Assembly (NCBI RefSeq): GCF_008727875.1
Contig: NZ_VTWS01000001.1
Span: forward strand, 1,674,001-1,738,000
Direction: 5' to 3'
From: Larkinella humicola
Lineage (GTDB): Bacteria; Bacteroidota; Bacteroidia; Cytophagales; Spirosomataceae
DNA: 64,000 bases
Positions 8,705 through 29,428 of this stretch are shown in pieces; the stretch's first letter is position 1; every line of letters starts with the position of its first letter. Both the position numbers and the translations under genes were made by a program. The notes beneath the pieces were generated by a model. It did no database searches and was not told where the DNA came from. It saw only the letters and a list, made by a program, of their open reading frames with translations.

Positions 8705-8775
8705 TTGCCCCCCAGCCCCCTAAAGGGGGAGCTTGGAGCGCGAGAAAACTCCCCCTTTAGGGGGCTGGGGGGCAA
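8705..8775. repeat. Class B palindrome (CCCCCTAAAGGGGG type), copy 1
   Basis: Arms 8705-8731 and 8749-8775 (27 bp each) are perfect reverse complements around a 17-nt loop. Each arm itself contains the small palindrome CCCCCTAAAGGGGG, so cruciform and nested hairpins are possible. It sits between the convergent SusD and DUF2306 genes. Related copies occur at 10401-10469 and 29350-29428. It may serve as a bidirectional transcript end, but it lacks a U-tract. Confidence 0.92.
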
Positions 8776-10341: not shown

Positions 10342-10400
10342 CGTGAAAGTGAGTAAGGTGAGCAATGTACCGGTTTTAAGCAACTAAAGGATTTGCGTTT

Positions 10401-10469
10401 TGCCCCCAACCCCCTAAAGGGAGCTTTGAAATCCGGATATTTTAGCCCTCTTTAGGGGGCTGGGGGCAA
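10401..10469. repeat. Class B palindrome, copy 2
   Basis: Imperfect arms of about 21-22 bp (10401-10422 and 10447-10469) carrying CCCCCTAAAGGG-type sequence with an AT-richer loop. It fills the space between the Crp gene start and the stop of the haem/FG-GAP lipoprotein. Similar in sequence to 8705-8775. Confidence 0.85.
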
Positions 10470-12778: not shown

Positions 12779-12897
12779 ATCGATTGGTTTGGGAAAGTAT
12801 ATTAAGATTCCAATAGTACAAAATCTTATGAAATAATTATAATACGATCCAGTGATTTGTAAATAATGTAGAATAAGATTTTGTTAGCCAAGCTTAA

Positions 12898-13073
12898 CAA
12901 GTTGTTTAAGTTAACCGGGGAGAGCCCTGGAAGGGCGATCTGTCACTAGCCAATAGCCGATAGCAACTCGTGGTAGCTCCGGAGGAGCGGCCTGAAGATG
13001 TTTTTAGACCGCTCCTCCGGAGCTACCACGAGTTGCTATCGGCTGTGGACTAGTGACAGGACAGGCCTCCGGC
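12898..13073. repeat. Class C long palindromic element, copy 1
   Basis: Arms 12942-12990 and 13009-13057 match over 46 of 49 bases around an 18-nt loop. Outer ends carry their own small palindromes (CCCTGGAAGGG near 12925 and GGCCTCCGGCC near 13064). The core GGTAGCTCCGGAGGAGCGG and both ends recur, in opposite orientation, at 27083-27250. The outer part of the stem differs completely between the two copies but is complementary within each. This element occupies most of the 12779-13251 gap; nothing else convincing is seen in that gap. Confidence 0.92.
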
Positions 13074-13251
13074 CATACCTTAATTCAAATAACTTCTAAG
13101 ACATTCGCCAGAATCGTTAGCGGGGTTGAGGTCGAGCGAAAACCATGAAAAACGAACCCAGATGAACGTATTAAAAAAACTCCGGCATCAGGAGCAGAAC
13201 GGCGACGGTATGAGTGCCGATGAATGGGAATGGTATAAACGCAAGCAAAGG

Positions 13252-13286
13252 AAAAAGCCCCAAAACAGCGTGTTTTGAGGCTTTTT
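13252..13286. terminator. Rho-independent terminator after tRNA-Ser
   Basis: Read on the minus strand, a stem AAAGCCTCAAAAC / GTTTTGGGGCTTT (one G-U pair) with a five-base loop is followed by a T-run, directly after the tRNA 3' end. The plus strand also ends in CTTTTT, so it can work in both directions. Confidence 0.85.
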
Positions 13287-13287
13287 G

Positions 13288-13372
13288 CAGAGGGAGAGGG
13301 ATTCGAACCCCCGGACCTGTTACAGTCAACAGTTTTCAAGACTGCCGCGATCGACCACTCCGCCATCCCTCT
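13288..13372 (-). tRNA. tRNA-Ser (anticodon UGA)
   Basis: The minus strand folds as a class II tRNA: acceptor arm AGAGGGA paired with TCCCTCT, D-arm region GGCGGAGTGG, anticodon stem GCAGT/ACTGT closing the loop CTTGAAA (anticodon TGA), a long variable arm (GACTGTAACAGGTC region) and a T arm GGGGG-TTCGAAT-CCCTC. No CCA is encoded, as is common in this phylum. A canonical promoter lies just upstream at 13392-13422. Confidence 0.96.
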
Positions 13373-13391
13373 GGGTCACTTATTGTGGGTG

Positions 13392-13422
13392 CAAAAGTAA
13401 GACGGTTTTTTTATTTTCCCAA
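13392..13422 (-). promoter_or_regulatory. Bacteroidota-type promoter of tRNA-Ser
   Basis: On the minus strand, TTG (13420-13422), a 20-nt spacer, then TACTTTTG (13392-13399), an exact match to the TTG-N(19-21)-TAnnTTTG consensus known for this phylum. The tRNA begins 19 nt after the -7 box. Confidence 0.8.
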
Positions 13423-13507
13423 TACCCTCCGCCAAAATCCGTATTTTTTCCTTCCGATCCCCTAACTTGCCTTCCAAACCATCCGGGTGAACACCCGGTC
13501 GACGGCT

Positions 13508-13741
13508 ATGTGGCAGGAAGAAAACAACCAACTTACCCGAACCTTCACGTTCCGGGATTTTAGCGAAGCCTTCGCGTTTATGACCCGCGTGGCCCTCATC
13601 GCCGAAAAAATGGACCACCACCCCACGTGGACCAACACCTACAACCAGGTCTCGTTCCAACTTAGCACCCATGACGCGGGCAACACCGTTACGGAGAAAG
13701 ACCGCAAACTGGCGGAAGCAATCGATAAACTTATTGAGTGA
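13508..13741 (+). CDS. phhB: 4a-hydroxytetrahydrobiopterin dehydratase (pterin-4a-carbinolamine dehydratase)
   Basis: A 77-residue cytoplasmic enzyme that dehydrates 4a-hydroxy-tetrahydropterin during phenylalanine hydroxylation, or acts as a DCoH-like protein. The active-site signature MDHHPTW (36-41, with His37 and His38) is present, followed by the typical [22 protein letters not shown] ending, in the usual small-family length. The frame extends to a GTG at 13487, but the ATG at 13508 (MWQEENNQL) fits the family better. Its last codons form the first bases of the palindrome that separates it from rsmI. No phenylalanine hydroxylase gene is in the window. Confidence 0.93.
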
Positions 13742-13832
13742 TTGAGCAAATGAGTGATTGAGTGAAGGACTGCGTCATCGCGCCTAGTCTGACTCTTTTC
13801 GCTCAATCGCTCAATCACTCATTCACTCAATA
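13732..13832. repeat. Class A palindrome, copy 1 (GAGTGATTGAG words)
   Basis: Arms of about 33 bases (from 13732 and 13800-13832) pair over 27 of 33 positions. Both are built from the words GAGTGATTGAG and AATGAGTGA. The left arm starts inside the last codons of phhB; the right arm ends a few bases before the rsmI ATG. The loop holds CTGCGTCATCGCG, whose reverse strand contains TGACGCA, as in copies 2, 4 and 8. Confidence 0.88.
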
Positions 13833-13834
13833 AA

Positions 13835-14500
13835 ATGAAACTCTACCTCGTCCCCACCCCCATTGGTAATCTGGATGACATTACGCTGCGGGCGGTGAAT
13901 GTGCTGAAGTCGGTGGATGCCATTCTGGCGGAAGACACGCGCACCTCGGGTTTTCTGCTGAAACACCTCCAGATCAGCAAACCGCTCCACAGCTACCATA
14001 TTTTTAATGAACACCAGACCGTGCAGCGCGTCATTGCCCAACTCAAAGCGGGCAAAACCCTGGCGCTGGTGTCGGACGCCGGAACGCCCGCCATCTCGGA
14101 CCCCGGTTTTCTGCTCGTGCGCGAGTGCATCAAACACGAGATTCCGGTCGAGTGCCTGCCTGGCCCCACGGCCTTTGTCCCGGCGCTGGTCAACTCAGGG
14201 TTGCCCGCCGACCGGTTTACGTTCGAGGGATTTCTGCCCCACAAAAAAGGCCGCCAGACCCGGCTCGGAGAGTTGGCCGAAGAAACCCGAACGATGGTTT
14301 TCTACGAATCGCCCCACCGGCTGGTCAAATCGCTGACCCAGTTTGCCGAGGTTTTCGGCCCCGACCGACAAGCCAGCGTATCGCGCGAGCTGACAAAACT
14401 GTTTGAAGAAACCGTTCGCGGTTCGTTACAGGAAATAATTACGTACTTTGCCGAAAAAACGATAAAAGGTGAACTTGTCATTGTTGTCCAGGGAAAATAG
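13835..14500 (+). CDS. rsmI: 16S rRNA (cytidine(1402)-2'-O)-methyltransferase
   Basis: A 221-residue member of the tetrapyrrole-methylase (SAM) fold that 2'-O-methylates C1402 of 16S rRNA in the ribosomal P site. It begins with YLVPTPIGNLDDITLRA and contains DAGTPAISDPG near residue 81 and SPHRLVKSL near 165, all diagnostic of RsmI. The length is normal for Bacteroidota, which often lack the extra C-terminal domain. The next coding frame overlaps its 3' end by 32 bp if the GTG at 14469 is used. Confidence 0.96.
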   Translation: MKLYLVPTPIGNLDDITLRAVNVLKSVDAILAEDTRTSGFLLKHLQISKPLHSYHIFNEHQTVQRVIAQLKAGKTLALVSDAGTPAISDPGFLLVRECIKHEIPVECLPGPTAFVPALVNSGLPADRFTFEGFLPHKKGRQTRLGELAEETRTMVFYESPHRLVKSLTQFAEVFGPDRQASVSRELTKLFEETVRGSLQEIITYFAEKTIKGELVIVVQGK

Positions 14501-15713
14501 CCACCGACTCCTGAAAGCTGTTTTCGTTATTCTATATTCGTTATTCAGTATTCATTATTCATCCGCCCAGACCCTTTCCCCCCAGGCCAAAGTCAGCCTG
14601 ATCACGGTGGCGCCAGGGTCCGAATTGTATTCGTCGTTTGGCCATACCGCCCTGTGGATCAGCGACCCCATGTACGGCGTCGACCGGGTCTATAACTACG
14701 GCACCTTTGCGTCCTACGCTGACAATTTTTACGTCAAATTCCTGAAAGGCACCCTGCCCTACTACGTGTCGGTGTATCCCATGCCGAACATGATTTACGG
14801 GTCGCAGTTGGAAAACCGCACGCTCAAGGAGCAAATCCTGAACCTGTCGGACGCCCAGAAACAGCGGCTTTTTCAGCTCCTGGAAACCAACGCCCTGCCC
14901 GAAAACCGCGAATACAGCTACCGGTTTTATTACGACAATTGCGCCACCCGCCCGCGCGACATGCTCGTCAAAGCCTGTGGCGACAGCCTGCGGTTTGCCA
15001 ACGTGGTCGATTCCACCAAGTCGTACCGCGACTGGATGAACGAATACATTGCCAACCAGGCCTGGGCGCGGATGGGCATGAACCTCGGCATCGGGTATCC
15101 GGCCGACATCAAGGCTACGCCCTGGCAGGCCATGTATTTGCCCGACAATGTGTATACGGAGGTCGACCACGCCCGGCTGATCACCACCAACGGACAGGAA
15201 ACGCCACTGGTGGCCAACAGCCTGATGCTGTTCCGGGCCGTCACGGCGGAAGAAACCAACGCCTTTCTGACGTACCTGCTTTCGCCGGATTTCTTCTTTG
15301 CGGTGCTGCTGGTGGTGGTTTTTCTGGTTACGCGCCGTCAGCAACGGGCCAAAAAAGCCGGTTTCTGGCTCGACCGGCTGTTGTTTGGCTTCACCGGTTT
15401 CTGGGGCTGGTTTCTGGTTTTTCTGTGGTTCGGCACCGACCACGGCGTCACGACCTGGAACCCCGCGTTGCTGTTCATAATGCCGCTCCATGTGCCGCTG
15501 ATTTTCTGGGTGACGCGCCGGGGCAATCCACAAACAATCCGAACCTATTTCCTGTTGACGATGGTATGCCTGATTCTGTTCTTTTTGTATGCGTTTTTTC
15601 AGGATTACCTCTACGGGTTTACGTTCTTTTTACTAACCTTGTTGTTTCGCGCGTTTTACCAATTCCGCACGGCATCCACCCAAACCGCACCGTCCACTTA
15701 TGCCAGGTCCTGA
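14469..15713 (+). CDS. DUF4105 (Lnb N-terminal periplasmic-like) membrane protein
   Basis: About 414 residues. No ATG precedes the signal peptide, so a GTG at 14469 (or one of the TTG codons just after it) must start it. The signal peptide ends with HYSSAQ. The periplasmic part (about 40-240) has DUF4105 features: SELYSSFGHTALWI, YNYGTFAS and FYYDNCATRPRDML, with a Cys and His set as in the Lnb family of lipoprotein N-acyl-transferring enzymes. Four or five membrane segments follow (about 275-400). Odd point: codons 20-31, the signal-peptide core, are encoded by TTATTC and ATTCATTATTCA words identical in style to the class A repeats. It overlaps the next gene by 14 bp. Confidence 0.85.
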   Translation: MNLSLLSRENSHRLLKAVFVILYSLFSIHYSSAQTLSPQAKVSLITVAPGSELYSSFGHTALWISDPMYGVDRVYNYGTFASYADNFYVKFLKGTLPYYVSVYPMPNMIYGSQLENRTLKEQILNLSDAQKQRLFQLLETNALPENREYSYRFYYDNCATRPRDMLVKACGDSLRFANVVDSTKSYRDWMNEYIANQAWARMGMNLGIGYPADIKATPWQAMYLPDNVYTEVDHARLITTNGQETPLVANSLMLFRAVTAEETNAFLTYLLSPDFFFAVLLVVVFLVTRRQQRAKKAGFWLDRLLFGFTGFWGWFLVFLWFGTDHGVTTWNPALLFIMPLHVPLIFWVTRRGNPQTIRTYFLLTMVCLILFFLYAFFQDYLYGFTFFLLTLLFRAFYQFRTASTQTAPSTYARS

Positions 15714-16548
15714 TATCCAATTGGCGGGTTTAACCCAGCAGATCACTGAAATTGCCCGGCAGGCCGGGGCATTCATCCGGCAGGAAAGGCTTTCGTTTTC
15801 CAGTGAACACATTGAATACAAAGACGTTAACAATCTGGTTTCGTACGTTGACAAAGAAGCCGAGAAACAGATTGTCGAAGCCCTGCACACACTGTTGCCC
15901 GAAGCCGGTTTTATCACGGAAGAAGGAACTACCGGACAGAACGCCGACCGCACCGGGCTGAACTGGATCATCGATCCGCTCGACGGCACAGCGAATTTTA
16001 TCCACAATCTGCCGGTTTTTTCGGTCAGCATCGGGCTGGCCGATGGCAAAACACCGATTGCGGGGGTGGTTTACGACATCAACCGCGACGAGTGTTACCA
16101 CGCCTTCACGGGCGGAGGAGCCTGGTGTCTGCGCAACGGCGCGGTCGATGAGCGCATCGCCGTGTCGCCCGCAACCCGACTGCATGAAAGCATGATTGCC
16201 ACCGGTTTTCCATATTCCAGCATGGACCGCATCGAGCGGTATCTGGCCATTCTGGCATCGCTCATGAAGCGCACCCACGGCCTGCGCCGAATGGGCTCGG
16301 CTGCCATCGACCTGGCCTACGTCGCCTGCGGGCGGTTTGAAGCCTATTACGAATTCAACCTCAATTCGTGGGACATGGCCGCGGGCGTGTTGCTGGTGCG
16401 CGAAGCGGGTGGCATCGTTACCGACTTCAACGGGGGCGACGAGTTTCTGTTCCGGGGCGACGTGCTCGCCGGTTGCGCCATGCAGCCCGAATTGCTGGCC
16501 GTCATCGAGGAATACTGGAACAACGAAGGAGCGCTGCCGATTCTTTAA
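15700..16548 (+). CDS. Inositol monophosphatase family protein
   Basis: A 282-residue SuhB/IMPase-type Mg-dependent phosphatase. Metal-binding motifs are present: TEEG near residue 73, WIIDPLDGTANF (89-100, Asp92 and Asp95) and SWDMAAGVLLVREAGG near 223. The family dephosphorylates inositol-1-phosphate, PAP or related sugar phosphates; which one cannot be told here. The start overlaps the end of the DUF4105 gene by 14 bp, so the two are translationally coupled. Confidence 0.93.
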   Translation: MPGPDIQLAGLTQQITEIARQAGAFIRQERLSFSSEHIEYKDVNNLVSYVDKEAEKQIVEALHTLLPEAGFITEEGTTGQNADRTGLNWIIDPLDGTANFIHNLPVFSVSIGLADGKTPIAGVVYDINRDECYHAFTGGGAWCLRNGAVDERIAVSPATRLHESMIATGFPYSSMDRIERYLAILASLMKRTHGLRRMGSAAIDLAYVACGRFEAYYEFNLNSWDMAAGVLLVREAGGIVTDFNGGDEFLFRGDVLAGCAMQPELLAVIEEYWNNEGALPIL

Positions 16549-16553
16549 TCAGG

Positions 16554-16655
16554 AAACGGTATTCGGTTTACAGTTTACGGTGGCTACCGCATTAAACGTT
16601 GGGTATAATTAAGCATGCGTCAGCCACCGTAAACAGAATACGGTAAACCGTAAAC
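16554..16655. repeat. Class A palindrome, copy 2 (GTTTACGG/GTATTC words)
   Basis: A perfect 13-bp inner stem (GTTTACGGTGGCT at 16573-16585 with its complement from 16622) flanked on both sides by the same words (GGTTTAC and GGTATTC) in a different order, so the outer stem is scrambled rather than paired throughout. The loop side contains CATGCGTCAGCC, which is GGCTGACGCATG on the other strand, as in copies 4, 5 and 8. It sits between the phosphatase and glycosyltransferase-like genes. Confidence 0.8.
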
Positions 16656-16674
16656 ATCTTTAGGTTGACTCCAC

Positions 16675-17658
16675 ATGATTCCCATCATCTTCGTTCATTC
16701 CGGTTACCAGTCCTATCTGGAGTATAGCCTGCGGCAGTGTCGGCTGGCGAATCCGGCGTCGGCGGTGTATTTACTGGGTGATGAGGACAACAAAAACCGC
16801 TTTCCATTTGTCACGCACGTGCCGATTGCATCGCTGAATCCGGAAAAATCCGATTGGTTTACCAAACGCTACGTTCACCGGTCCTACAATCCCGAATGGT
16901 ATGAACGGCTCTGTTTTGTCCGCTGGTTCTACGTGCTGGCGTTTATGGAGGAGCGAAAGCTGGACGAGGTTTTCGTGGCGGATTCCGATGTGATGCTCTA
17001 TAAAAACCTGGATCACTATGCCGCCTGGACATCCCGAAAACCGGGTCAACAGTCGGCTTATTGCCTGACCGACCACCAGTCCATCGGTTCGTATAGCTGG
17101 GTAGCCTCGGCCCACTCCTCCTTCTGGACCCGCAAAGGCATTGCCGATTTTTGCGCCTATCTTCTGAAAACCTACCAGACCACGGCCAATCAGGCCCGTC
17201 TGGAAGAGAAATGGCAGTATCACCAGCAAAACGGGCTGGCGGGTGGCGTGTCCGATATGGCTTTGCTGTACCTCTACGAAACCGACCATCCGGGTCAGGT
17301 GGTCAATCTGTTGCAGCCGTCGGCGGGGCCGAACCAGCCGCTGCGGGAGGTGTTCGACGTTAATGTCAGCATTCCGCACAACCAGGTAGACAACGAGTTC
17401 GAGATGGACGAGCGTTCGCTTAAAAAAGTCCGGTGGGAACACCAAGAGTTTGTCGGCTACAACCGGATTTTGAAAGAAACCTGTATCTTTAATTCCCTCC
17501 ATTTTCAGGGATTGAGCAAACGCTGCATTCACCAGTATTACCAGGGTACCGATCTGAAGCTGCATCAGCTGATGGAGGAAGTAAAACACCGGTTTGACCC
17601 GGTTTTGCAGCCGGTTCGCCAACTCAAAAAAGGTTTGAAACGGATTTTAAAACGCTGA
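16675..17658 (+). CDS. Putative glycosyltransferase-like protein
   Basis: A 327-residue soluble protein without signal peptide or membrane span. It begins with a beta-strand-like IPIIFVHSGYQSYLEYSL and carries a candidate DxD metal/nucleotide-sugar motif (VADSDVMLY, DSD at 103-105), in the position expected for GT-A-fold transferases. The C terminus is basic (QLKKGLKRILKR). No named family is recognised with certainty. A DinB-like gene follows after 3 bp, so both are cotranscribed. Confidence 0.6.
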   Translation: MIPIIFVHSGYQSYLEYSLRQCRLANPASAVYLLGDEDNKNRFPFVTHVPIASLNPEKSDWFTKRYVHRSYNPEWYERLCFVRWFYVLAFMEERKLDEVFVADSDVMLYKNLDHYAAWTSRKPGQQSAYCLTDHQSIGSYSWVASAHSSFWTRKGIADFCAYLLKTYQTTANQARLEEKWQYHQQNGLAGGVSDMALLYLYETDHPGQVVNLLQPSAGPNQPLREVFDVNVSIPHNQVDNEFEMDERSLKKVRWEHQEFVGYNRILKETCIFNSLHFQGLSKRCIHQYYQGTDLKLHQLMEEVKHRFDPVLQPVRQLKKGLKRILKR

Positions 17659-17661
17659 CGT

Positions 17662-18198
17662 ATGTCCGACACCAACGATCTCCGCTATCCCATTGGCCCG
17701 TTTACGTTCGGCCATTCTTATTCGTTCGATCAATCGCAGGAGCACATTGCCGCCATTGCGGTTTTTCCCCACAACCTCACCGAACTGGTGGGCCGCTGGG
17801 GCGACAGCCGGCTCGACACGCCCTACCGCCCCGGTGGCTGGACCGTCCGGCAGGTGGTTCACCACGTCGCCGACAGCCACATGAATGCCTACGTCCGCAC
17901 CAAACTGGCGTTGACCGAGGCCATTCCGACCATTAAACCGTACGACGAAAACGCGTGGGCGACCCTCCCCGACTACCGGCTTTCCATCGCGCCGTCGCTG
18001 GTCATTCTGAGCAACTTACACCAGCGTTGGGTAGCGGTTTTGAACGCCCTGACTGAAGCACAGCTCCAGCGGCTGTATTTCCATCCCGAAAGCAAAAAGC
18101 AGTTTTCGCTCGCCGAAGCCCTTGCCAACTATGCCTGGCACGGCGAACACCACTACCAACACGCCTACCAGCTTGCCCTCCGGAACCATTGGGTTTAG
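17662..18198 (+). CDS. YfiT/BstA-type DinB-superfamily metal-dependent enzyme
   Basis: A 178-residue four-helix DinB-fold protein. It opens with the YfiT signature RYPIGPF and contains the metal-ligand histidines in VRQVVHHVADSHMNAY and in the C-terminal YAWHGEHHYQHAYQL. Related proteins are bacillithiol S-transferases or uncharacterised thiol-dependent hydrolases. The gene starts 3 bp after the glycosyltransferase-like gene. Its stop codon opens class A copy 3. Confidence 0.9.
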   Translation: MSDTNDLRYPIGPFTFGHSYSFDQSQEHIAAIAVFPHNLTELVGRWGDSRLDTPYRPGGWTVRQVVHHVADSHMNAYVRTKLALTEAIPTIKPYDENAWATLPDYRLSIAPSLVILSNLHQRWVAVLNALTEAQLQRLYFHPESKKQFSLAEALANYAWHGEHHYQHAYQLALRNHWV

Positions 18199-18270
18199 TT
18201 AAGAGTTAAGAATTAAAAGTTTAAAGTTGCGACACCGCCTATTTTTAACTTTTAATTCTTAACTCTTAAC
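18198..18270. repeat. Class A palindrome, copy 3 (GTTAAGAGTTAAG words)
   Basis: Perfect 24-bp arms, 18198-18221 and 18247-18270, separated by 25 nt. The left arm begins at the last base of the upstream stop codon; the right arm ends 5 bp before the next start. The loop contains GTTGCGACACCGCC, a diverged form of the motif seen in other copies. No U-tract follows. Confidence 0.93.
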
Positions 18271-18275
18271 TCAAA

Positions 18276-18449
18276 GTGTTTGAACATCTCCTCATCGGTC
18301 TGATTTTTCTGAGTGCGGTGGCCTACCTCGGTCGTCGGGCGTGGAAGAGTCTGTTCCGGAAAGAGGCCGGCTGTGGCAAGGGATGCGGGTGCAGTGCCGA
18401 CGCAAAAGTCACGTCAGTTAACAAATCAGGGCGGTTACCAGTTAACTAA
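18276..18449 (+). CDS. FeoB-associated Cys-rich small membrane protein
   Basis: A 57-residue protein starting with GTG. One membrane helix (HLLIGLIFLSAVAYLGRRAW) is followed by a cysteine-rich cytoplasmic tail (CGKGCGCSA), the layout of the FeoB-associated Cys-rich family, which is thought to accompany ferrous-iron transport. No feoA or feoB lies within the window, so here the gene is separated from its usual partner. It sits between class A copy 3 and the DUF4403 gene, 25 bp upstream of the latter. Confidence 0.75.
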   Translation: MFEHLLIGLIFLSAVAYLGRRAWKSLFRKEAGCGKGCGCSADAKVTSVNKSGRLPVN

Positions 18450-18474
18450 GTGGTAGTACGTATTCCGACCCAAC

Positions 18475-19899
18475 ATGACGAGTGACGAAAGCGGGGGAAG
18501 CCGATTCCCTTCTTATATTCCCATAACCGTAATCCTCGCTTTGTTGATGGCGGGTATCTTTTCCTGCAAAAAAGTCAACCCCGAGCCCCCCGCTGCCCGC
18601 AATTTCGATGATTCTCTGACGGCCGACAGTTCCTACGTGACGGCTCCGATTCTGTTTGAAATTTCTGAACTCGAAGAAAAAATCAACAAGGCGCTCGGCG
18701 TGGTGCTGGTCGAAAAGGCCGAGATCAAGAGCGGCAAATCCCGGTCTTTAAACCTGCGCATCGAACGAAACGGGCCCATCAAGCTGGCTTTTGACGGCAC
18801 CCGGCTGACGTTCAGTGCCTCCCTGAAAATCTGGCTCAGCAACCCCATGAATTTGCTGACCAACTCAAAAGACACCAGCAACTGGGTGTATAGCGCCATC
18901 GACGTGCGGTTTCGCAGCCCGCTGACGGTACAGGACAACTGGCGCGTGCAAACCCGTGTCGAGTTGGAAACGTATCACTGGATTACCAAACCCCGGATTC
19001 GGGTGCTGGGTATAGACATCCCCGTTACCCGGCTGGCCGACCGCATTCTCGCCAAACGGGAAGACGGCATCGAGAATGCCATCGACAACGCGGTTTTTAA
19101 CGAACTCCGGCTGGACCGCGAACTGCAAACCGTCTGGAAAGATATTCAGAAACCATTGCTCATCAACCGGCAGTATCAGCAGGTCTGGCTCCTTCCCCGC
19201 CCCTATGCCGTTTTGGTCGGGCCGATTCGCGGCAATCCGAAAACGATTGTAATTCCGATGCGGCTCAAACTGGGCGTCGATACGAAATTTGGTCCCCGCC
19301 CGGTCTACACGCCCTCGGCTCAACTTCCGCGTTTGCAGAAAGTGGCCTCGCTGCCCATGATGTCGCGCATCAATTTGCTGAGTCGTATTCCCTACACGCA
19401 ACTAACGGCGGTGCTGAACACCTTCATTCGGGGTAAAAAACTCAACGTAATCAATCACCTGATAGACATCGAAAAAGCGGATATTTACGGCGGTGAACAC
19501 GCCCTGATCGTTCGGACAGACATCCGAGGAGCCATCCGGGGAAGCCTCTATTTCCGGGGGCGACCGGCATTTGACACCATTCGTAACGAACTGATGATGA
19601 AGAACATCGACTACGACATCCACACCGAGCAATCCCTGGCCCGGGTTGCCGACTGGCTCCTCCACGACACGCTCAAAGACACCTTGCAGGCCACCCTGAA
19701 AATACCGCTTCAGGAACATTTCACCCTGCTTCCCCACAAAATCGAAACGGCCTTTTCGCGGGCTAAAGTGGGACGAAAAGCCCGCATCGACATCCCGAAA
19801 TTTCAGTTAATTCCCAAAGCCATTGCCGTCCGCCCCGACGGTTTGTACATTCTTCTCCACGCCGATGCCGCGATGCGGCTTGAAGTTGTAGATTTGTAA
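18475..19899 (+). CDS. DUF4403 family lipoprotein
   Basis: A 474-residue exported protein with an N-terminal hydrophobic segment ending in GIFSCKK (probable lipidated Cys). The body has the duplicated beta-rich layout of DUF4403, including ISELEEKINKALG near residue 62 and a second module near 290-470 with IPYTQLTAVLNTFIRGKKL. The fold is related to lipid-binding tubular domains, but the function is unknown. Residue counts and the opening are normal for the family. Confidence 0.85.
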   Translation: MTSDESGGSRFPSYIPITVILALLMAGIFSCKKVNPEPPAARNFDDSLTADSSYVTAPILFEISELEEKINKALGVVLVEKAEIKSGKSRSLNLRIERNGPIKLAFDGTRLTFSASLKIWLSNPMNLLTNSKDTSNWVYSAIDVRFRSPLTVQDNWRVQTRVELETYHWITKPRIRVLGIDIPVTRLADRILAKREDGIENAIDNAVFNELRLDRELQTVWKDIQKPLLINRQYQQVWLLPRPYAVLVGPIRGNPKTIVIPMRLKLGVDTKFGPRPVYTPSAQLPRLQKVASLPMMSRINLLSRIPYTQLTAVLNTFIRGKKLNVINHLIDIEKADIYGGEHALIVRTDIRGAIRGSLYFRGRPAFDTIRNELMMKNIDYDIHTEQSLARVADWLLHDTLKDTLQATLKIPLQEHFTLLPHKIETAFSRAKVGRKARIDIPKFQLIPKAIAVRPDGLYILLHADAAMRLEVVDL

Positions 19900-19995
19900 G
19901 CTGTAGAGTATCCATTTCACCCCAACCCCGAAAGCGAGCCAGCCGTTCGTCCTTTCGAATCACACGCCAGGGAGTTGGAGGCAATCGTTTTACCA

Positions 19996-21207: not shown

Positions 21208-21208
21208 A

Positions 21209-21277
21209 GGATGAATGATGAGTGATGAACGGGCTGACGCATACATTCATCGTTCATCATTCATCACTCATCATTCC
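21209..21277. repeat. Class A palindrome, copy 4 (GAATGATGAGTGATGAA words)
   Basis: A 17-bp perfect pair (21213-21229 with 21260-21276) within longer arms built of ATGAATGATG and TTCATCATTC words. The loop reads GGGCTGACGCATAC, the clearest form of the shared loop motif. It separates convergent genes with about 70 bp between their stop codons. Confidence 0.9.
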
Positions 21278-21888
21278 TATTCTGCCTTCCATCGCCACAG
21301 ATACCGGGATGCCAGCGTGCGGTGGGGGCGCCAGGGCTCGGCGATTTCGTGCAGGCGTTTGTAGAGTGCCCGGCCGGTTTCGGTTAGGCCATAGGCTTTT
21401 ACCATCTTCTGCCGAATCACCAGATCATCGACCGGGAACACGTCGGGGCGATCCAGCACGAACATCAGCAGCATCTCCACGGTCCAGCGGCCCACGCCCT
21501 TGATGGGCAGCAGGTATTGCACCACTTCTTCGTCGGTCAGTGGCCCGAGGTGGTCGCTGGACATGGGGTTTTTCAGGGCAAATTCGGCCACACTTTGCAG
21601 ATAGACGGATTTCTGACCCGACAACCCCGCACTCCGCAATTCCTCCGGCAACTTGGCCACCAACTGTTCCGGGTGCGGATAGCCATCGGGGAACAGAGCC
21701 AGAAACCGGGTAAAAATGGAATCGGCCGCTTTGACAGAAATCTGCTGGGAGACGATGCTTTCCAGCAACGCCAGGTAAATCGGGTTCTTGTCCGGGTCTT
21801 CGTCATACGCAAATGCTACTTTCGGCAAGGGCGTCGACGCAATAATTTGCTTCAGAATGGCATCTTTGGCGAGATGGTCAAGTGGCAT
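21277..21888 (-). CDS. DNA-3-methyladenine glycosylase, AlkA/HhH-GPD type
   Basis: About 203 residues from the ATG at 21888 (MPLDHLAKD); a GTG 22 codons upstream would add a non-typical stretch. The HhH-GPD base-excision fold is evident: SIVSQQISVKAADSIF near 48, the helix-hairpin-helix LLPIKGVGRWTVEMLL near 128, and the catalytic aspartate in DVFPVDDLVIR. It removes alkylated bases from DNA. Its stop codon lies at the edge of class A copy 4. Confidence 0.93.
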   Translation of the reverse strand: MPLDHLAKDAILKQIIASTPLPKVAFAYDEDPDKNPIYLALLESIVSQQISVKAADSIFTRFLALFPDGYPHPEQLVAKLPEELRSAGLSGQKSVYLQSVAEFALKNPMSSDHLGPLTDEEVVQYLLPIKGVGRWTVEMLLMFVLDRPDVFPVDDLVIRQKMVKAYGLTETGRALYKRLHEIAEPWRPHRTLASRYLWRWKAE

Positions 21889-22138
21889 GGGAAAGGTATT
21901 TTCAGGTCCATGAATGGAAAGAATAAAGATCGGAAGGAATGCCCAGACCGACACGGTTTCTCACCGGTTTTCCGCTCCCCGACCGACCCGTATGATGGGC
22001 TTCTTTTGACACTTCATCCGGAAGTTGTTACGGTTCAGCAGGTTGAGAATTGGGATGCGAGGGTAAGTGGGGCAATTTTGTGCTGTTCAAATTGAAAAAA
22101 GCCTATCCACACCACTTTTTGTTCATCCACTCACTCTC

Positions 22139-23119
22139 ATGAAAAAAGTCTTTAAAATCATTGGTTACGGCTTCGGTGGCCTTGTTTTGCTGATCGCCGG
22201 TTATTGCACGTATGTAGCCGTTGTGGGCGTTCCGAGCTACGATCCACCCACGATCCCGGAAATCACCGTCGAAAGCACCCCCGCCCGCGTAGCCCGTGGG
22301 GAGGTAATCGGCCAGATCCAGTGCCTCGCCTGCCACGCCAACAACGAAAACCGCCTGACCGGCAAATACCTGGGGGAAGTACCGGCCCTCTTTGGCAAGC
22401 TGTACTCTAAAAACATCACCCAGGACCTGGAAAAAGGCATTGGCAACTGGACCGACGGGGAATTGATCTACTTCCTGCGAACCGGCCTCCGGCGCGACGG
22501 CACCTACGCTCCCATCATGCCCCAGTATCCCAATATGGCCGACGAAGACCTGAAATCGGTGGTGGCCTGGCTGCGCTCCGACCGCTTCCCGGTTCAGGCC
22601 ACCAAAGAAGAAGCCCCGGAGTCGGAACTGAGTTTTGTATCGAAACTCCTGACGCATACCCTTATGAAGCCCCTCGCCTATTCGCCGGCACTCGTTTCGC
22701 TGCCCGACAGCACGGATCCGGTTGCGTTGGGCAAGTACACTGCCGACGCCATCGGCGACTGCTATAGCTGCCACTCCGGCGACCTAATCGACCAGAGCAA
22801 AGAACAACCTGAAAAGAGCAAGGGCTATTACGGCGGTGGAATTGAAATGAAAGGCGAAGGCGGAAAACCGGTTATTACGGCCAATCTGACGTTCGACGAG
22901 CAAACGGGAATTGCCAAAAAATACACCAAAGAGCAGTTCATCCGCGTGGTAAAACTCGGTGTTCGACCCGACGGTTCGGTTCTCAAACAACCCATGTTCC
23001 CGCGTCCGATGTTGTCGGACAACGAAGTGGGCGCGATTTATGAATTCCTGAAAACCGTACCGAAAATTCAGAACGACATCGCCAAGAAGAACGCGGAATT
23101 GCAACTGGCGGAGAAATAA
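22139..23119 (+). CDS. Dihaem cytochrome c family protein
   Basis: 326 residues from the ATG at 22139. An N-terminal membrane anchor (about 7-30) is followed by two cytochrome c domains with CLACH (62-66) and CYSCH (208-212); later methionines, as in PIMPQYPNM and KQPMFPRPM, are suitable sixth ligands. It is an anchored periplasmic electron carrier, related in layout to the cytochrome subunits that accompany dehydrogenases. No dehydrogenase gene is adjacent. Confidence 0.92.
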   Translation: MKKVFKIIGYGFGGLVLLIAGYCTYVAVVGVPSYDPPTIPEITVESTPARVARGEVIGQIQCLACHANNENRLTGKYLGEVPALFGKLYSKNITQDLEKGIGNWTDGELIYFLRTGLRRDGTYAPIMPQYPNMADEDLKSVVAWLRSDRFPVQATKEEAPESELSFVSKLLTHTLMKPLAYSPALVSLPDSTDPVALGKYTADAIGDCYSCHSGDLIDQSKEQPEKSKGYYGGGIEMKGEGGKPVITANLTFDEQTGIAKKYTKEQFIRVVKLGVRPDGSVLKQPMFPRPMLSDNEVGAIYEFLKTVPKIQNDIAKKNAELQLAEK

Positions 23120-23137
23120 GATACCGGAGGCCGGTAG

Positions 23138-24166
23138 TCAGACCAGCGGCAATGTTACCCGAAACTCCTGACCGGTTTCTTCTATTCTCGGAACCGGCTG
23201 GCCCAGCATCTGGTATTTGGTCAGGATGTTGCTCAGGCCCACCCCGTTGGAAAGAATCCGACTGGCTTTGCGCTGGAGGTTGTTGCTCACGATCAGGTGC
23301 TGTTGTTCATCGGTCGTGAGCACAATCGTGAGTGGCTGTTCGGGCAGAATGATGTTGTGTTTGACGGCATTCTCAATCAGCAGTTGCAGCGTCAGGGGCG
23401 GCAGATGCATCGTTTCCGTACCGGGATAAATCCGGGTCACCAGCGTCAGGGCTTCGCCGTGGCGGGTTTTCAGCAAGTGGTAATACGATTGAATGAATTC
23501 CAATTCATTGGCTAAAGGCGTCAGCGCGCTCTCGTTGCTGCGGAGCAAATACCGGTAGACCGAGCTGAGTTCTTCGGCAAATACTTCGGCCTGCTGCGGG
23601 TTTTCGCTAATGAGTGCCGTCAGCGAGTTGAGGCTATTGAACAGAAAATGCGGGTTGACCTGCTGCCGCAGGGTGTCGAGCTGGGCCTGAAGCTGAGCTT
23701 TGCTCAGCGTATCGACTTCCTTGCGCGACTGCTGCCAGTGTCCGAAACTATCCATGCTTTCGTAAGTGATGACCACAATCGCCACGATGAGGGTGGTAAA
23801 TACCAGACCCAGCAACAACCGGCTTACTTCCGGTTCGAAACCCGGCATCGCGATGAACCAGTACACGAAAAAGAGGACCGCAACGTGTAACCCGGAACTG
23901 AGGGAGCAAAACAAAAAGCGTCGGAAGGCGCGGCCTACGTATTGCTCAGGGTCCGGATACAACTGGTTGATGCGAATGGCAATGCCGTTGTTGACATACC
24001 AGGCCGTAAATGACTCCAGAAAGGCTAAACCAGTCGCCAGGCCGAGGGTTGTCCAGTTTCGCCAGTAGTCGTCGCCCAGCAGTAACCAGTTCAAAATACT
24101 GATATACAGTGGAACAACGATGATTTGTAAAAGCCAGTCGTATCGGGAATAGGCCAGAAGTTTCAT
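23138..24166 (-). CDS. Sensor histidine kinase, LytS/YehU type
   Basis: 342 residues from the ATG at 24166; the longer frame to 24325 runs through a clear promoter and is rejected. Four membrane helices (about 10-135) are followed by a His_kinase domain with QVNPHFLFNSLNSL (phospho-acceptor His173) and an ATPase part with LIENAVKHN near 262 and NGVGLSNI near 313. Such kinases normally pair with a LytTR response regulator, usually in the next gene; none is present on either side, so the partner lies elsewhere. Confidence 0.93.
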   Translation of the reverse strand: MKLLAYSRYDWLLQIIVVPLYISILNWLLLGDDYWRNWTTLGLATGLAFLESFTAWYVNNGIAIRINQLYPDPEQYVGRAFRRFLFCSLSSGLHVAVLFFVYWFIAMPGFEPEVSRLLLGLVFTTLIVAIVVITYESMDSFGHWQQSRKEVDTLSKAQLQAQLDTLRQQVNPHFLFNSLNSLTALISENPQQAEVFAEELSSVYRYLLRSNESALTPLANELEFIQSYYHLLKTRHGEALTLVTRIYPGTETMHLPPLTLQLLIENAVKHNIILPEQPLTIVLTTDEQQHLIVSNNLQRKASRILSNGVGLSNILTKYQMLGQPVPRIEETGQEFRVTLPLV

Positions 24167-24192
24167 AGGAAGCAGAAAGCAGAGCCGCTTTT

Positions 24193-24222
24193 CAAATCTA
24201 CGAAATTCTCCAGACAGGTCAA
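24193..24222 (-). promoter_or_regulatory. Promoter of the LytS-type kinase
   Basis: Minus strand: TTG (24220-24222), a 19-nt spacer, TAGATTTG (24193-24200). This is an exact consensus match. The ATG at 24166 lies 26 nt downstream of the -7 box, which also supports that start. Confidence 0.8.
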
Positions 24223-24327
24223 GTCGGTTTTCCCAAACCATCCGAAACCGGTTTAGGTATATGCTCGTCAAGGCGGCCAAATTAAAGAACCGCTGCCATT
24301 GGTCAAATTTGATTGTTAACCGCAAAC

Positions 24328-24533
24328 AAGACCCTGAAAGGGTCCAATCATTAGCCCCGGATGCAATCCGGGGAATGGAGAATAGATGTAGCGGAGTAAC
24401 AACCCTGAAAGGGTTGAATAGATAAAATCCGTTATTGATATGACCCTTTCAGGGTCTTGTCCGTTCGTTGGCGGTCTCGATTCCATTCCCCGGATTGCAC
24501 CCGGGGCTAATGAGATGACCCTTTCAGGGTCTT
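24328..24533. repeat. Class D nested palindrome with four ACCCTGAAAGGGT motifs
   Basis: Outer arms of 52 bases (24328-24379 and 24482-24533) pair over roughly 47 positions. The 13-base palindrome ACCCTGAAAGGGT occurs at about 24331, 24402, 24442 and 24518 (the last two as ACCCTTTCAGGGT), and CCCCGGATGCAATCCGGGG forms another hairpin in each arm. It fills the space between the kinase promoter and the oxygenase stop codon. No gene is seen inside it. Confidence 0.9.
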
Positions 24534-24555
24534 GTCCGTTGGTCAGAGAATGGGA

Positions 24556-25251
24556 TCATTTCGCATCATGGAAAATGATTCCTAATGTATACCGGTTTCC
24601 GGAATGAACCGCGCTGACGCCGTGCCTCATCGTGACCCGGGAATACCCTCTTGTTCCCTTTTTCGGACGGAATTGCGTGGTAAACAGCAGGACATCGCCC
24701 TGCTTTGGAGTCAAAACCGTTGCTTTGGACTGCGCCCGGGGAACCTGCTCGGTCAAGACAAATTCCCCTCCGGTATAATCCTGAGCCGGTTCACTCAAAA
24801 AAACGACGGCCTGCAAAGGGAAATAGACATCTCCATACAAATCCTGATGCATCGCATTATAACCACCAGGACCGTATTTCAGCAGCAACGGAGTGGCCCG
24901 GCGCTGCTCATTCCGGTGGCATTCATCCAGAAAACCGGCGTGTTCTTCGGGGTAGTGAATCCCGAGTTTTAACAAACTTGCCCATTGATTCGCCACCGGA
25001 GCAATAGCTGCATAAATAGCCGTTCGCATCGTCTGAATGGGTTCAGGAAGCGGATACTGGAAATATTTGTACTCCCCCTGCCCGTAGCCGTGCCGTTCCA
25101 TCACGACCGTTTTCCGAAAATGCCCCGGTTCATCGTACAACGCCCTGAGCGGCTGGCATTCTTCCGGATGAAGCACCTGGCGGAGGAGCGCAAAACCGTT
25201 CGCATGGAGCGATTCGCGCGCATCATCCCAGTTCAGTTGATCGATTCTCAT
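24556..25251 (-). CDS. 2OG-Fe(II) oxygenase of the Oxygenase-NA (PF09859-like) family
   Basis: A 231-residue non-haem iron dioxygenase. It shows RHGYGQGEYKYF near residue 53, TPLLLKYGPGGYNAMHQDLYG (iron ligands His135 and Asp137), GGEFVLTEQVPRAQSK, and the distal block RHGVSAVHSGNRYTLGIIF, with a third His at about 210 and the 2-oxoglutarate-binding Arg. This matches the family named for oxidative repair of alkylated DNA. It lies 58 bp downstream of the Ada-like gene on the same strand, so an alkylation-response operon is likely. Confidence 0.88.
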   Translation of the reverse strand: MRIDQLNWDDARESLHANGFALLRQVLHPEECQPLRALYDEPGHFRKTVVMERHGYGQGEYKYFQYPLPEPIQTMRTAIYAAIAPVANQWASLLKLGIHYPEEHAGFLDECHRNEQRRATPLLLKYGPGGYNAMHQDLYGDVYFPLQAVVFLSEPAQDYTGGEFVLTEQVPRAQSKATVLTPKQGDVLLFTTQFRPKKGTRGYSRVTMRHGVSAVHSGNRYTLGIIFHDAK

Positions 25252-25309
25252 GCTACGGTCTATTTTATGAGAAATTGTTTTCTCTTATCTAACTGCTAAC
25301 GTCTACCGT

Positions 25310-26179
25310 TTATTTCCCTGCATAAGCGGCTTCCCAACCCAGCAAGGCCGTTTTGCGGGTGGCTCCCCAGCGGTAATTCCCAAACAAACCGGTTTTTCGG
25401 ATGACGCGGTGGCAGGGAATCAGGTAGCCCACCGGGTTGGAGCCGATGGCCGTTCCGACCGCCCGCGAAGCTGTCGGCATGCCGATGGCTGCTGCAATCT
25501 GGTCATAACTCACCACTTGCCCTTCCGGGATGCGCAGCAGAGCTTCCCACACTTTCAGTTGAAACGACGATGCCTTGACCAAAACCCGCAACGGTTTCCG
25601 GGCAGCATCGGTAAAAATCGCATCAGCCAGAGGGCGAAGAGCCGCGGAATCGGGGATGACCGTGGCTTCAGGCCAGTCGGTGGCAAATCGGTGGGCGATA
25701 CTGATGGCGTCAGTTGGCTCGGCTTCTTCCAGAAACTCCAGCCGACAGATTCGATCACCAATCGTTCCCAGCAGATACGGTCCAAAGGGGCTTTCAAAAA
25801 CCGCATACCGGATCGTCAGGCCCTCGCCGGCCAGTTTGAACTGACCGGGCGTAACGCCTTCCAGCACCACAAACAGGTCGTGCAACCGCCCCGTACCCGA
25901 CAGCCCGGCTTCGTCGGCGGCTTCCGCCAGGGTGAGCCCACTCCGCAACCGTTCTTTGGCGAAATCGAGGGTTAAATACTGTAGAAATTTCTTGGGACTC
26001 ACGCCCGCCCAATCCGAAAATAACCGCTGAAAATGGTAGTCGCTCAGGTTAGCCTGGTTAGCCACCTCGGCCAGCGAAGGTTGCTGACGAAAGTTCTCGG
26101 TCAAAAACTCAATCGACCGGGCAATCTGCTGGTAGGTAGGATTGGCTTCTGTTTCGTACATGAGTGTTGTCGTTTGCAT
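25310..26179 (-). CDS. Ada-like AraC regulator fused to methylated-DNA-[protein]-cysteine methyltransferase
   Basis: 289 residues from the ATG at 26179; the frame runs further into the next gene but that part is not family-like. Residues 10-105 are an AraC helix-turn-helix, and 120-289 a methyltransferase ending with the suicide-cysteine motif IPCHRVIRKTG (Cys256) plus the SRAVGTAIGSNP helix. The N-terminal zinc/phosphotriester domain of Escherichia coli Ada is missing, so the protein probably repairs O6-methylguanine and regulates transcription without the phosphotriester sensor. It is followed by the PF09859-type oxygenase. Confidence 0.92.
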   Translation of the reverse strand: MQTTTLMYETEANPTYQQIARSIEFLTENFRQQPSLAEVANQANLSDYHFQRLFSDWAGVSPKKFLQYLTLDFAKERLRSGLTLAEAADEAGLSGTGRLHDLFVVLEGVTPGQFKLAGEGLTIRYAVFESPFGPYLLGTIGDRICRLEFLEEAEPTDAISIAHRFATDWPEATVIPDSAALRPLADAIFTDAARKPLRVLVKASSFQLKVWEALLRIPEGQVVSYDQIAAAIGMPTASRAVGTAIGSNPVGYLIPCHRVIRKTGLFGNYRWGATRKTALLGWEAAYAGK

Positions 26180-26183
26180 GAAA

Positions 26184-26191
26184 CAAAAGTA
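26184..26191 (-). promoter_or_regulatory. -7 box of the Ada-like gene, 4 nt before its ATG
   Basis: TACTTTTG on the minus strand matches TAnnTTTG exactly. The ATG follows after only four bases, so transcription would start at or within a base or two of the start codon, giving a leaderless or near-leaderless mRNA (inference). No clear TTG element is seen at the usual distance. Confidence 0.5.
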
Positions 26192-26240
26192 GGCCACAAA
26201 CCCCGTCGGAGAAACCCGATTCTTGCGGACTTTTCCGAAC

Positions 26241-26975
26241 TTATTGCTTGATAAACCGGCGGGTATAAAACTGGTGTCCTGTACTAAACAGGATGATATA
26301 CACGCCTTTCGCCAGGGTCGAAACGTCGATCTGGTGCTGCTTTCCCACTTCCAGTTGCCGGGTTTGCAGCGGCTGGCCTGCCAGGGTGATGATTCGGGCT
26401 GAAAGGGTTGAATATGGCAGATCGGGAACATTGATGGTCAGCAGCTTGTCGGTCGGAACGGGAAAAATCTTTGCCAGATCCGGCTGGTGCTTACCCATGA
26501 GCTGTTCCAGTTCCTTGAAGAATTTCGTTTTGGACATCTCTTTATCAGACGACGTGATCCGGCCACTGATCCGTTGATCCTCCCGAACGACGTAGGTACC
26601 GCAGCCCCCCAGTTCATAATCACCGTTTCGCTCATTCTGATAATACGCGTTTTCGATTCGGTTGAGAATGAGGACGAGTCTATCGCCTTTCTTAAAGCCA
26701 TTCGTATAAAGTCGGCACATAAACCCGGGATCGCCCCACACCCGAACCACGGATTTTTCTTCACTCCCGTTCAACACCTCCAGGATTTTTACGTCCATGC
26801 CGTGTGCCTCGTGGTCCCGAACTTCCGCCCGGACAATCAACACACCGGGTTGCCAGGCCGCTTTCTCAGCGATGGTCAAAAAAGAGCCGGCATCGATGCA
26901 GCTACACGCCTGCACGTCGGTTATTCCACCCAACCCCGCTCCCACCATCATCACAAACAGTAGTATTCGTTTCAT
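26241..26975 (-). CDS. Secreted TIMP/NTR-like protein with a T9SS C-terminal sorting domain
   Basis: 244 residues from the second of two adjacent ATGs, which has GGAG at suitable spacing. The signal peptide is predicted to be cut at VQA|CSC, leaving a mature N terminus CSCIDAGSFLTIAEKA, followed by VLIVRAEVRDH. This opening copies the Cys-x-Cys start and the VIRA strand of tissue-inhibitor-of-metalloproteinase (netrin-like) domains. Further cysteines occur at about 89 and 127. Residues 170-244 are a type A T9SS sorting domain (IFPVPTDKLLTI ... KGVYIILFSTG ... RRFIKQ). The product is therefore exported through T9SS; inhibitor function is unproven. Confidence 0.8.
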   Translation of the reverse strand: MKRILLFVMMVGAGLGGITDVQACSCIDAGSFLTIAEKAAWQPGVLIVRAEVRDHEAHGMDVKILEVLNGSEEKSVVRVWGDPGFMCRLYTNGFKKGDRLVLILNRIENAYYQNERNGDYELGGCGTYVVREDQRISGRITSSDKEMSKTKFFKELEQLMGKHQPDLAKIFPVPTDKLLTINVPDLPYSTLSARIITLAGQPLQTRQLEVGKQHQIDVSTLAKGVYIILFSTGHQFYTRRFIKQ

Positions 26976-27082
26976 CATCTCTCCGTTTTTTAAGAGAGAC
27001 TCCAATTCGACCGGATTGGTTGGAAGTCCATAAGCGGTTCCATGCATATAGTTTCATAATTTTAGCAGTTGCTTGAATGAAA

Positions 27083-27250
27083 GCCGGAGGCCTGTCCTGT
27101 CAATAGCAAAGAGGGTTCAGGAGTCGGTAGCTCCGGAGGAGCGGCCTGAACGAATTCATGGATCGCTCCTCCAGAGCTACCGACTCCTGAACCCTCTTTG
27201 CTACTGACAGACCGCCCTTCCAGGGCTTTCCGATTAACTCAAACAGCTTG
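27083..27250. repeat. Class C long palindromic element, copy 2 (opposite orientation)
   Basis: Arms 27097-27143 and 27164-27210 pair over 45 of 47 bases with a 20-nt loop. Its reverse complement shares both ends with 12898-13073 (CAAGCTGTTTGAGTTAA, AGCCCTGGAAGGGC, GACAGGACAGGCCTCCGGC) and the core GGTAGCTCCGGAGGAGCG, while the intervening arm block (here AGCAAAGAGGGTTCAGGAG) is unrelated to copy 1. It lies between the T9SS gene and acs; nothing else is seen in 26976-27348. Confidence 0.92.
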
Positions 27251-27348
27251 TAAAATACAACCACTAAATATGCATAATACATAAATAACCGGTATCCCAG
27301 GCAAATGAGTCATTTCCCGAAATACCGGTTATTTAGCAGCAAAAATGA

Positions 27349-29349: not shown

Positions 29350-29428
29350 TGCCCCTAAATCCCCTGAAGGGAACTTGGACACGGACTTATCCGGATGCAA
29401 ATAGTCCCCTTCAGGGGATTTAGAGGCA
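29350..29428. repeat. Class B palindrome, copy 3
   Basis: Arms of about 23-24 bases (29350-29372 and 29405-29428) carrying CCCCTAAATCCCCTGAAGGG; one or two mismatches, loop about 32 nt. It is a diverged relative of 8705-8775 and lies between the DUF6814 stop codon and acs. Confidence 0.85.

Follow-up and report, generated by a model that had tools for sequence, protein, structure and literature searches.

A 64,000-nucleotide stretch of the Larkinella humicola genome (contig NZ_VTWS01000001.1, positions 1,674,001 to 1,738,000 of the forward strand; hereafter the window) carries two copies of a long composite hairpin, which we call class C elements, whose arms are unrelated between the copies and yet complementary within each. 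These elements are probably non-autonomous mobile hairpins of Larkinella, of the repetitive extragenic palindromic (REP) type, and, as part of the same reading, their arms are probably kept complementary by occasional template-switch copying of one arm onto the other. While the hairpin is being copied, DNA synthesis would now and then switch template between the arms. Such a switch would copy one arm onto the other and so homogenise the pair; a switch to the other strand would leave the spacer, or the whole interior, inverted; and a base change or small indel arising in one arm would be erased or spread to its partner, so that the arms would drift as a pair. We prefer template switching because one process then gives both the inversions and the matched substitutions described below, whereas recombination could give inversions but not matched substitutions, and selection the reverse. 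From this combination we infer a polymerase that switches template rather than another non-reciprocal copying process.

The genome that contains the window (G000) measures 7.86 Mb; we compared it with those of Larkinella sp. C7 (G002, the sister species), Larkinella knui (G005) and G006; loci are cited below by contig and position or by locus number. Two elements in opposite orientation with matching ends, mini-palindrome and core, as the original prediction described them, were indeed present in their places, and both are real long hairpins, with arms of 57 nucleotides and 91% complementarity in copy 1 (12940-12996/13003-13059) and arms of 47 nucleotides and 96% complementarity in copy 2 (27097-27143/27164-27210). 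The core gives four matches in the window at up to three mismatches, against 0.03 expected. The mini-palindrome GCCCTGGAAGGGC has exactly two exact matches there, at 12924 (+) and 27214 (-), while looser matches to it in the window are about as many as chance would give (27 against 22.7 expected).

Judged by eye from the empty orthologous sites in G002 and G006, the whole insertion of copy 1 spans about 12896 to 13097 and lies on the minus strand if the L-type end is taken as first. From left to right it consists of the R-type outer mini-hairpin GCCCTGGAAGGGC (12924-12936), a left arm of 35 nucleotides running from CTGTCACTAG to GGT (12940-12974), the core hairpin AGCTCCGGAGGAGCG (12975-12989, +), a spacer forming the loop and reading GCCTGAAGATGTTTTTAGAC on the plus strand (12990-13009), the inverted core hairpin (13010-13024, -), the right arm (13025-13059) and the L-type outer mini-hairpin GGCCTCCGGCC (13064-13074). 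Copy 2 (27061-27251, plus strand, its limits taken from other copies) begins with its L-type end: the outer mini-hairpin AGCCGGAGGCC (27082-27092) is followed by a left arm of 32 nucleotides (27097-27128), the core hairpin (27129-27143, +), a spacer that starts GCCTGAACG on the plus strand (27144-27163), the inverted core hairpin with one mismatch (27164-27178, -), the right arm (27179-27210) and the R-type outer mini-hairpin (27214-27226). The spacer starts GGCCTGAA on the plus strand in both copies, and the outer ends are in opposite orientation; the spacer is therefore inverted relative to the ends between the two copies.

The right arm departs from the complement of the left at 3 of 35 positions in copy 1 and at 1 of 32 in copy 2. 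The arm middles (22 nucleotides in copy 1, 19 in copy 2) show 13 differences from one copy to the other, which is the level reached by letter shuffles (13.0±1.45). The predicted contrast between unlike copies and complementary partners thus holds, although the unrelated block is rather 19 to 22 nucleotides long than the 25 or so first proposed, since CTGTCAxTAG on the outer side and GGT on the core side are common to both copies.

How such arms arise is better seen across the genome. Thirteen of the 15 core-bearing L. humicola loci enter the arm comparison; C1:49810 (one end of which is another palindrome), C16:620903 (two L ends) and half elements at contig starts were set aside. The two arms are identical in 5 of the 13 copies, and the median arm distance is 2 within a copy and 10.9 between copies. 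Arm length ranges from 32 to 35 nucleotides across copies and is equal within the copy in ten. Divergence is graded: C11:536868 and C17:542283 lie four steps apart, every one of them present in both arms, C13:1009165 is at 4.5 and 5.5 from these two, and the nearest neighbour of copy 1, C11:107192, is at 3.5. Copy 2 stands apart from the series, with its nearest copy at 9.5, and its arm middle matches only its own partner, no other source being found in G000, G002, G005 or G006 at up to three mismatches. We infer that the same copying process lies behind this unique arm.

Because the copies form a graded series, a single whole-arm replacement is not required. Of the original prediction, which favoured replacement of the whole block by copying of one arm onto the other, it is the copying that stands, on the strength of the inverted spacers, the excess of two-arm changes, the agreement in arm length within 10 of 13 copies and the absence of a wobble sign; the single event can be dispensed with. 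Stepwise intermediates, named at the time as evidence to the contrary, do exist in part, as a graded series with small symmetric steps, to which the orthologous pair L013/L181 adds a case at a single site. Conservation of arm blocks in further copies, named likewise, is found for copy 1 but not for copy 2.

Neither do the two window copies document a replacement in place. Both are absent at the orthologous positions of G002 and G006, which carry a different hairpin at the place of copy 2, and a further class C copy, C13:66437, is absent in G002. The copies are therefore separate insertions, and the difference between copy 1 and copy 2 cannot be read as change at one site. No target duplication, such as DDE-type MITEs leave, was visible by eye at the two empty sites inspected, those of copy 1 and C13:66437. 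Presence/absence of this kind is common: between G000 C13:1-800000 and G002 C1:180001-980000 there are 44 gaps of 60 to 420 nucleotides in which one species has extra sequence, and 24 of the 44 inserts contain an ungapped hairpin with a stem score of at least 14. By eye, these 24 include hairpin families of the CCCCTAAAGGGG, GGTTTACGG and AATGTAAAATG types.

Change within one site can be followed at hairpins that two species share. An 800-kb survey of G000 against G002 gave 212 inverted repeats with stems of at least 13 bp, of which we kept 51 non-overlapping shared hairpins with at least 16 matched pairs. In the 34 of these 51 loci where both arms are more than 70% alike (17 were excluded), there are 32 substitutions that both arms share and 90 that are one-sided, when independence would give 4.4 two-arm changes by a formula that includes a factor of 1.3 chosen by us. 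Controls in which the arms were slid by one, two or three columns gave 1, 4 and 0 two-arm matches. The excess persists over all 51 loci (47 two-arm and 229 one-sided changes, 9.5 expected; a slightly different earlier counting gave 47 and 259) and without the richest site, C13:718651 (24 and 88, 3.6 expected). At that site eight differences fall in both arms and two in one arm, the 22-nucleotide loop is identical but inverted, and the flanks match. Among class C elements proper, the orthologues L013/L181 show four two-arm differences at a single site (by eye).

Paired changes in a stem are classically explained by compensatory evolution: the hairpin, as RNA or as single-stranded DNA, would be under selection, point changes in one arm would be matched later in the other, and the inversions would be a separate matter. 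The graded series with its small steps agrees with this, as do the greater number of one-sided changes, the occurrence of the exact core pair in other genera and the frequent G-T pairing reported for the stems of other REP families in the accessible part of PMC3733652, which fits RNA-level selection in those families and to that extent speaks for selection here as well. A route through wobble pairs should enrich transitions among two-arm changes, but these make up 13 of 32, against 55 of 90 one-sided changes; transversions accordingly account for 19 of 32 and 35 of 90 (p 0.06), a difference in the direction opposite to the wobble route. Compensation through G-U pairs is thus disfavoured. Moreover, arm lengths change in both arms, selection on pairing does not invert loops, and at C13:718651 the unpaired loop has kept its sequence while the arms differ at eight matched sites. 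We therefore regard compensatory evolution as an unlikely source of the matched arms.

The second signature expected from template switching is inversion of the loop. In the 51 shared hairpins 7 loops are inverted, 29 are forward and 15 are uncallable, so that 7 of 36 callable loops have turned; the inverted loops are 13 to 40 nucleotides long, on stems of up to 42 bp. Inversion is concentrated in long stems, with 6 of 12 at 30 bp or more and 1 of 24 below (Fisher p 0.003, rising to 0.007 when one doubtful call is dropped, the cut having been chosen post hoc). By eye the inverted call at C13:286594 is questionable, and two uncallable loci on the same contig (84652 and 657701) look inverted. 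A looser first scoring, with 20 inverted and 89 forward among 131 inverted repeats, contained overlaps and non-shared hairpins (for example C13:25906, 592358, 744293) and is superseded by the 51-locus test.

The REP-type elements themselves behave in the same way. Ten orthologous pairs between G000 and G002 were present among the fetched loci, the core being lost in G002 at L034/L151 and L026/L160. Eight of the ten were callable, and the interior is inverted in three: at L193/L148 and L036/L149 the spacer is inverted with the arms in place (by script), and at L184/L150 core and spacer are inverted, probably with the arms (by eye; the script did not locate this one). Orientation is unchanged at L162/L153, L188/L156, L189/L152, L185/L159 and L190/L157. 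Against G005, four of six loci were callable, the others being L181, whose core is partly deleted, and L200, whose arms and spacer are not alike; three of the four are inverted. Spacer and arms are exchanged relative to G000 at L196 and L175, the spacer of L194 is inverted relative to G002, and L168 agrees with G000. L158 and L194 differ from each other by the same core base in each core arm. Within L. humicola the spacer lies in either orientation relative to the L and R ends, six copies to six (12 of the 13 L/R-ended copies were readable by eye), while a scripted classifier assigned four copies to '+', six to '-' and left three unassigned, one of them palindromic and copy 2 among them. C13:1009165 and C13:1034645 carry the same arms, the same deletion in one arm and the same variant of the spacer, but their interiors lie in opposite orientation relative to the ends.

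L036 (C16:620903), L149 and L175 belong to a subfamily with two L ends, whose arms are recognisably alike in the three species G000, G002 and G005. The outer sequence is symmetric over about 30 nucleotides and the arms are non-complementary; arm and spacer orientation is found in three states across the three species.

Inversions of this kind may also result from recombination between the inverted arms, by RecA or a site-specific invertase, which would flip the interior, while exchange between copies would swap interiors and bring matched arms from a donor. The whole-interior inversions at L196 and L175, with arms changing places, and probably that at L150 (by eye), are what recombination would produce. 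Exchange is further suggested by hybrid structures: in C11:1091383 (L030) one arm is near the C1:49810 type and the other near the C15:415458 type (by eye), like two joined halves, and L165:1053 in G005 has a hybrid outer hairpin, half R type and half L type, like the joined halves of two elements. Recombination leaves unexplained, however, why both arms carry the same substitutions at a site with an otherwise unchanged loop, and the stem of L193, about 12 bp by eye, is short for RecA. All considered, recombination seems to us as improbable an explanation as compensatory selection.

A number of observations weigh against arm copying. Arm lengths are unequal in three of the 13 class C copies, and the arms are unmatched in two, C3:139287 (17 differences) and C11:1091383 (13), so the match between arms is not always re-established. 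With 90 one-sided changes to 32 two-arm changes, copying is not constant, and the class C pair L034/L151 has identical arms in two species, with no turnover. The transversion test is not significant at 0.05, and stem length shows no significant link with two-arm change (p 0.15). At C13:786425 inner arm asymmetries have been swapped, not erased. Scripted spacer orientation is uneven in L. knui (7 to 2) and G002 (3 to 1), and inversion taken alone could come from recombination between repeats.

To these points must be added the nature of the data, since the survey concerns one species pair and all comparisons involve draft assemblies (G002 has about 310 contigs, G005 about 20), and assemblers fail at long hairpins. 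If draft assemblies misjoined hairpins in either orientation or collapsed their arms, both inversions and matched arms could be spurious. Contigs C3, C13 and C16 of G000 do begin inside class C elements, most survey inversions are in long stems, and the effect of stem length on inversion would also be expected from such an artefact. Yet misjoins make no matched substitutions relative to a sister species, some inverted stems are only about 12 to 20 bp long by eye (L193/L148, L158/L194), and in each of two trios (L193/L148/L168 and L189/L152/L196) one assembly stands against two that agree. We consider an assembly artefact very unlikely. C3 and C13 seem to start with the two halves of a single element.

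The wider family to which the class C elements belong was described from the 15 core-bearing loci of G000 and 51 rows from four genomes. Its plan comprises an outer mini-hairpin, a CTGTYAATAG tag, an arm of about 25 nucleotides, the core hairpin AGCTCCGGAGGAGCG and a spacer of about 20 nucleotides, after which the parts return in inverse order, for a total of some 190-200 bp. In class C each element has one L-type (GGCCGGAGGCC) and one R-type (GCCCTGGAAGGGC) outer mini-hairpin; other subfamilies follow the same plan with arms that are not complementary. Compared, by eye, with the terminal inverted repeats of DDE-type MITEs, element ends such as AAGAAGTTGTTTGAATGAA and AACAAGCTGTTTGAGTTAA resemble each other without being identical. 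As in REPs and REPINs, a short hairpin is repeated genome-wide and forms pairs in inverse orientation: the core has 54 matches in G000 at up to three mismatches, against four for a control read backwards. A GTAG/CGTC tag at the hairpin end was not seen, CTGTYAATAG standing by eye a few bases 3' of the outer hairpin; GTAG does precede the core in most class C copies of G000, and not in other subfamilies.

A covariance model of class C (E 0.01) matches six of nine Larkinella genomes, with 63 matches in G000, 82 in G005, 42 in G002 and 2 in each of three others, both strands counted. The exact core pair was found in three of 39 relatives searched, all three within the genus Larkinella. It also occurs in 53 stretches of named genomes, mainly from Larkinella, Flavobacterium, Hymenobacter and Pontibacter, as well as in one Verrucomicrobia and one Acidobacteriota metagenome bin; many of the 53 stretches show an outer hairpin and then a tag such as AAATATTTATAG. 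Rfam has no RNA family for the elements, the sole window match at gathering score being a tRNA (13288-13372).

The original prediction had pointed to a RAYT/TnpA_REP-type transposase to be looked for elsewhere in the genome. A Y1 gene flanked by the units does exist, truncated here and open in two relatives, but the protein from one of these, G002, fails the cut-off of the REP-associated family. G000 has seven Y1 matches, one of which, C13:524608 (L005), is a truncated gene beside core and tag units. In a tree of 24 Y1 genes from nine genomes (four weak fragments of 28, L006, L007, L119 and L125, were excluded), the tag lies within the flanks examined of four genes: L005, L112 (in G004), L122 (G005 C12:565123) and L126 (G002 C1:715300). 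These four form one clade with support 100/99. The exact core flanks three of them as well (L005, L122, L126), L112 having one tag and no exact core. Within the clade, the genes of G002 and G005 are open. The protein from G002 scores above the cut-off of the IS200/IS605 model NF033573 (72.1 bits, cut-off 55) and below that of the REP-associated transposase model NF047646 (30.4 bits against 80); among solved chains, its closest matches carry the annotation transposase (best E 8.8e-08). The elements thus work like REPs without being filed as classical RAYT REPs. Linkage to Y1 outside Larkinella is not supported, since the Larkinella Y1 profile found no match at E 1e-5 in the 53 core-bearing loci of named genomes. 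Other Y1 genes, namely L114, L124 and, going by the number of tags, L004 and L109, are flanked by another hairpin of similar plan, which at L114 and L124 consists of GTCGCGTAGCGAC or ATCCCGTAGGGAT, followed by a tag that ends in TTTGTAG and by some 24-30 nucleotides. This suggests that each Y1 clade has its own hairpin unit.

Could the transposase itself be the agent that matches the arms? A Y1 enzyme would act on the folded single strand, and copies might be born matched, or their interior cut and rejoined either way. The association of tag and core units with one Y1 clade fits this scheme, as does the lack of target duplication at two empty sites. But the linked Y1 gene is truncated in G000, and inversion and matched changes are seen at sites where the element stayed in place. 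Hairpins that lack core and tag show both as well, and neither unit is present in any of the nine survey hairpins judged inverted or possibly inverted. The hairpin-based transposition put forward earlier as an arm copier is not supported, loop inversion extending to hairpins without these units, and we think it quite unlikely that transposition drives the process, less likely still than selection or recombination.

The window holds other hairpins. Those at 8705-8775, 10400-10469 and 29350-29428 belong to another palindromic family, of the CCCCCTAAAGGGGG type, and long hairpins at 45540-45657, 38363-38457, 18194-18274 and 13731-13833 have arms made of short repeated words (GGTATTC, ATGATGA, AGTTAAG, TGAGTGAT).

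We suggest, as a tentative view that is possible rather than probable, that in the long hairpins of Larkinella arm copying is so frequent that mutation, not selection, upholds complementarity. Arms would then be nearly unconstrained and drift as pairs, the loops of long hairpins would tend to random orientation, and a private arm pair such as that of copy 2 could arise with the structure kept. Covarying base pairs are normally strong evidence of a selected RNA stem. If DNA synthesis copies arm onto arm, covariation arises without selection, and in such genomes compensatory change would be no proof of a functional stem; the Larkinella case would be one in which a mobile hairpin family can alter its sequence almost freely. 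In the published case on RNA hairpins (PMC8794818), evidence for stem upkeep is called circumstantial in the part accessible to us. Two Larkinella genomes, about 93% identical, have dozens of hairpins in common, in which events of arm copying and loop inversion can be scored relative to orthologous flanks; this makes the upkeep of hairpins under sequence drift directly testable.

Hairpin loops invert in chloroplast genomes. Plastid small inversions and hairpins are treated, among others, in PMC6005162, PMC6824564 and PMC9653739, going by their accessible portions. Among the best-ranked papers in openly accessible literature, no title or abstract opening dealt with inverted loops or copied arms in REP elements of bacteria, subscription journals lying for the most part outside this search. 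Among REP-like systems, the closest likeness is with REP/REPIN/BIME elements and their RAYT genes, which, in the sections available (PMC3733652; PMC3116915, PMC2817692), are tagged short hairpins in inverse pairs beside Y1 genes; some REP dimers have variable spacers or complementary spacer ends (PMC3733652, same restriction). The Larkinella elements differ in that the foot of the outer hairpin has no GTAG, CTGTYAATAG lying a few bases 3', in that a second hairpin pair lies inside, and in that the linked Y1 protein scores as IS200/IS605 and not as REP-associated. By its motif alone, YILNQEEHH, the G002 protein fits the signature Y---Q--HH of TnpA-Y1 subclass 1.2, described in the accessible text of PMC6006769 as occurring in Cyanobacteria and Bacteroidetes with a mean of 148 amino acids; that text gives 'no' for REP or hairpin structures in this subclass, whereas hairpin arrays flank the Larkinella gene.

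For the process itself, the nearest relatives lie elsewhere. The explanation resembles the one given for RNA hairpins in PMC8794818, where compensatory changes are explained as arm-from-arm copying and, in the text available, evidence for the upkeep of short stems is held to be 'circumstantial' and complete loop inversions very rare, against 7 of 36 callable loops inverted between two Larkinella sister species. It is the same as that described for short inverted repeats in Saccharomyces cerevisiae (PMC8604942, accessible part), in which template switching between inverted repeats makes the arms alike and inverts the spacer, recurrently; ten spacer inversions are reported there, with two to five substituted bases, in coding genes and between arms of 10-16 bp, and earlier work by the same authors on proteobacterial inverted repeats is cited. 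Larkinella departs from the yeast case, so far as that text describes it, in its loops of 13-40 nucleotides and stems of up to 42 bp, in the drift of whole arms, and in its setting, intergenic hairpins of bacteria and a mobile family. Template switching between inverted repeats is thus a known process, and what looks new is its density on a mobile family of bacterial hairpins.

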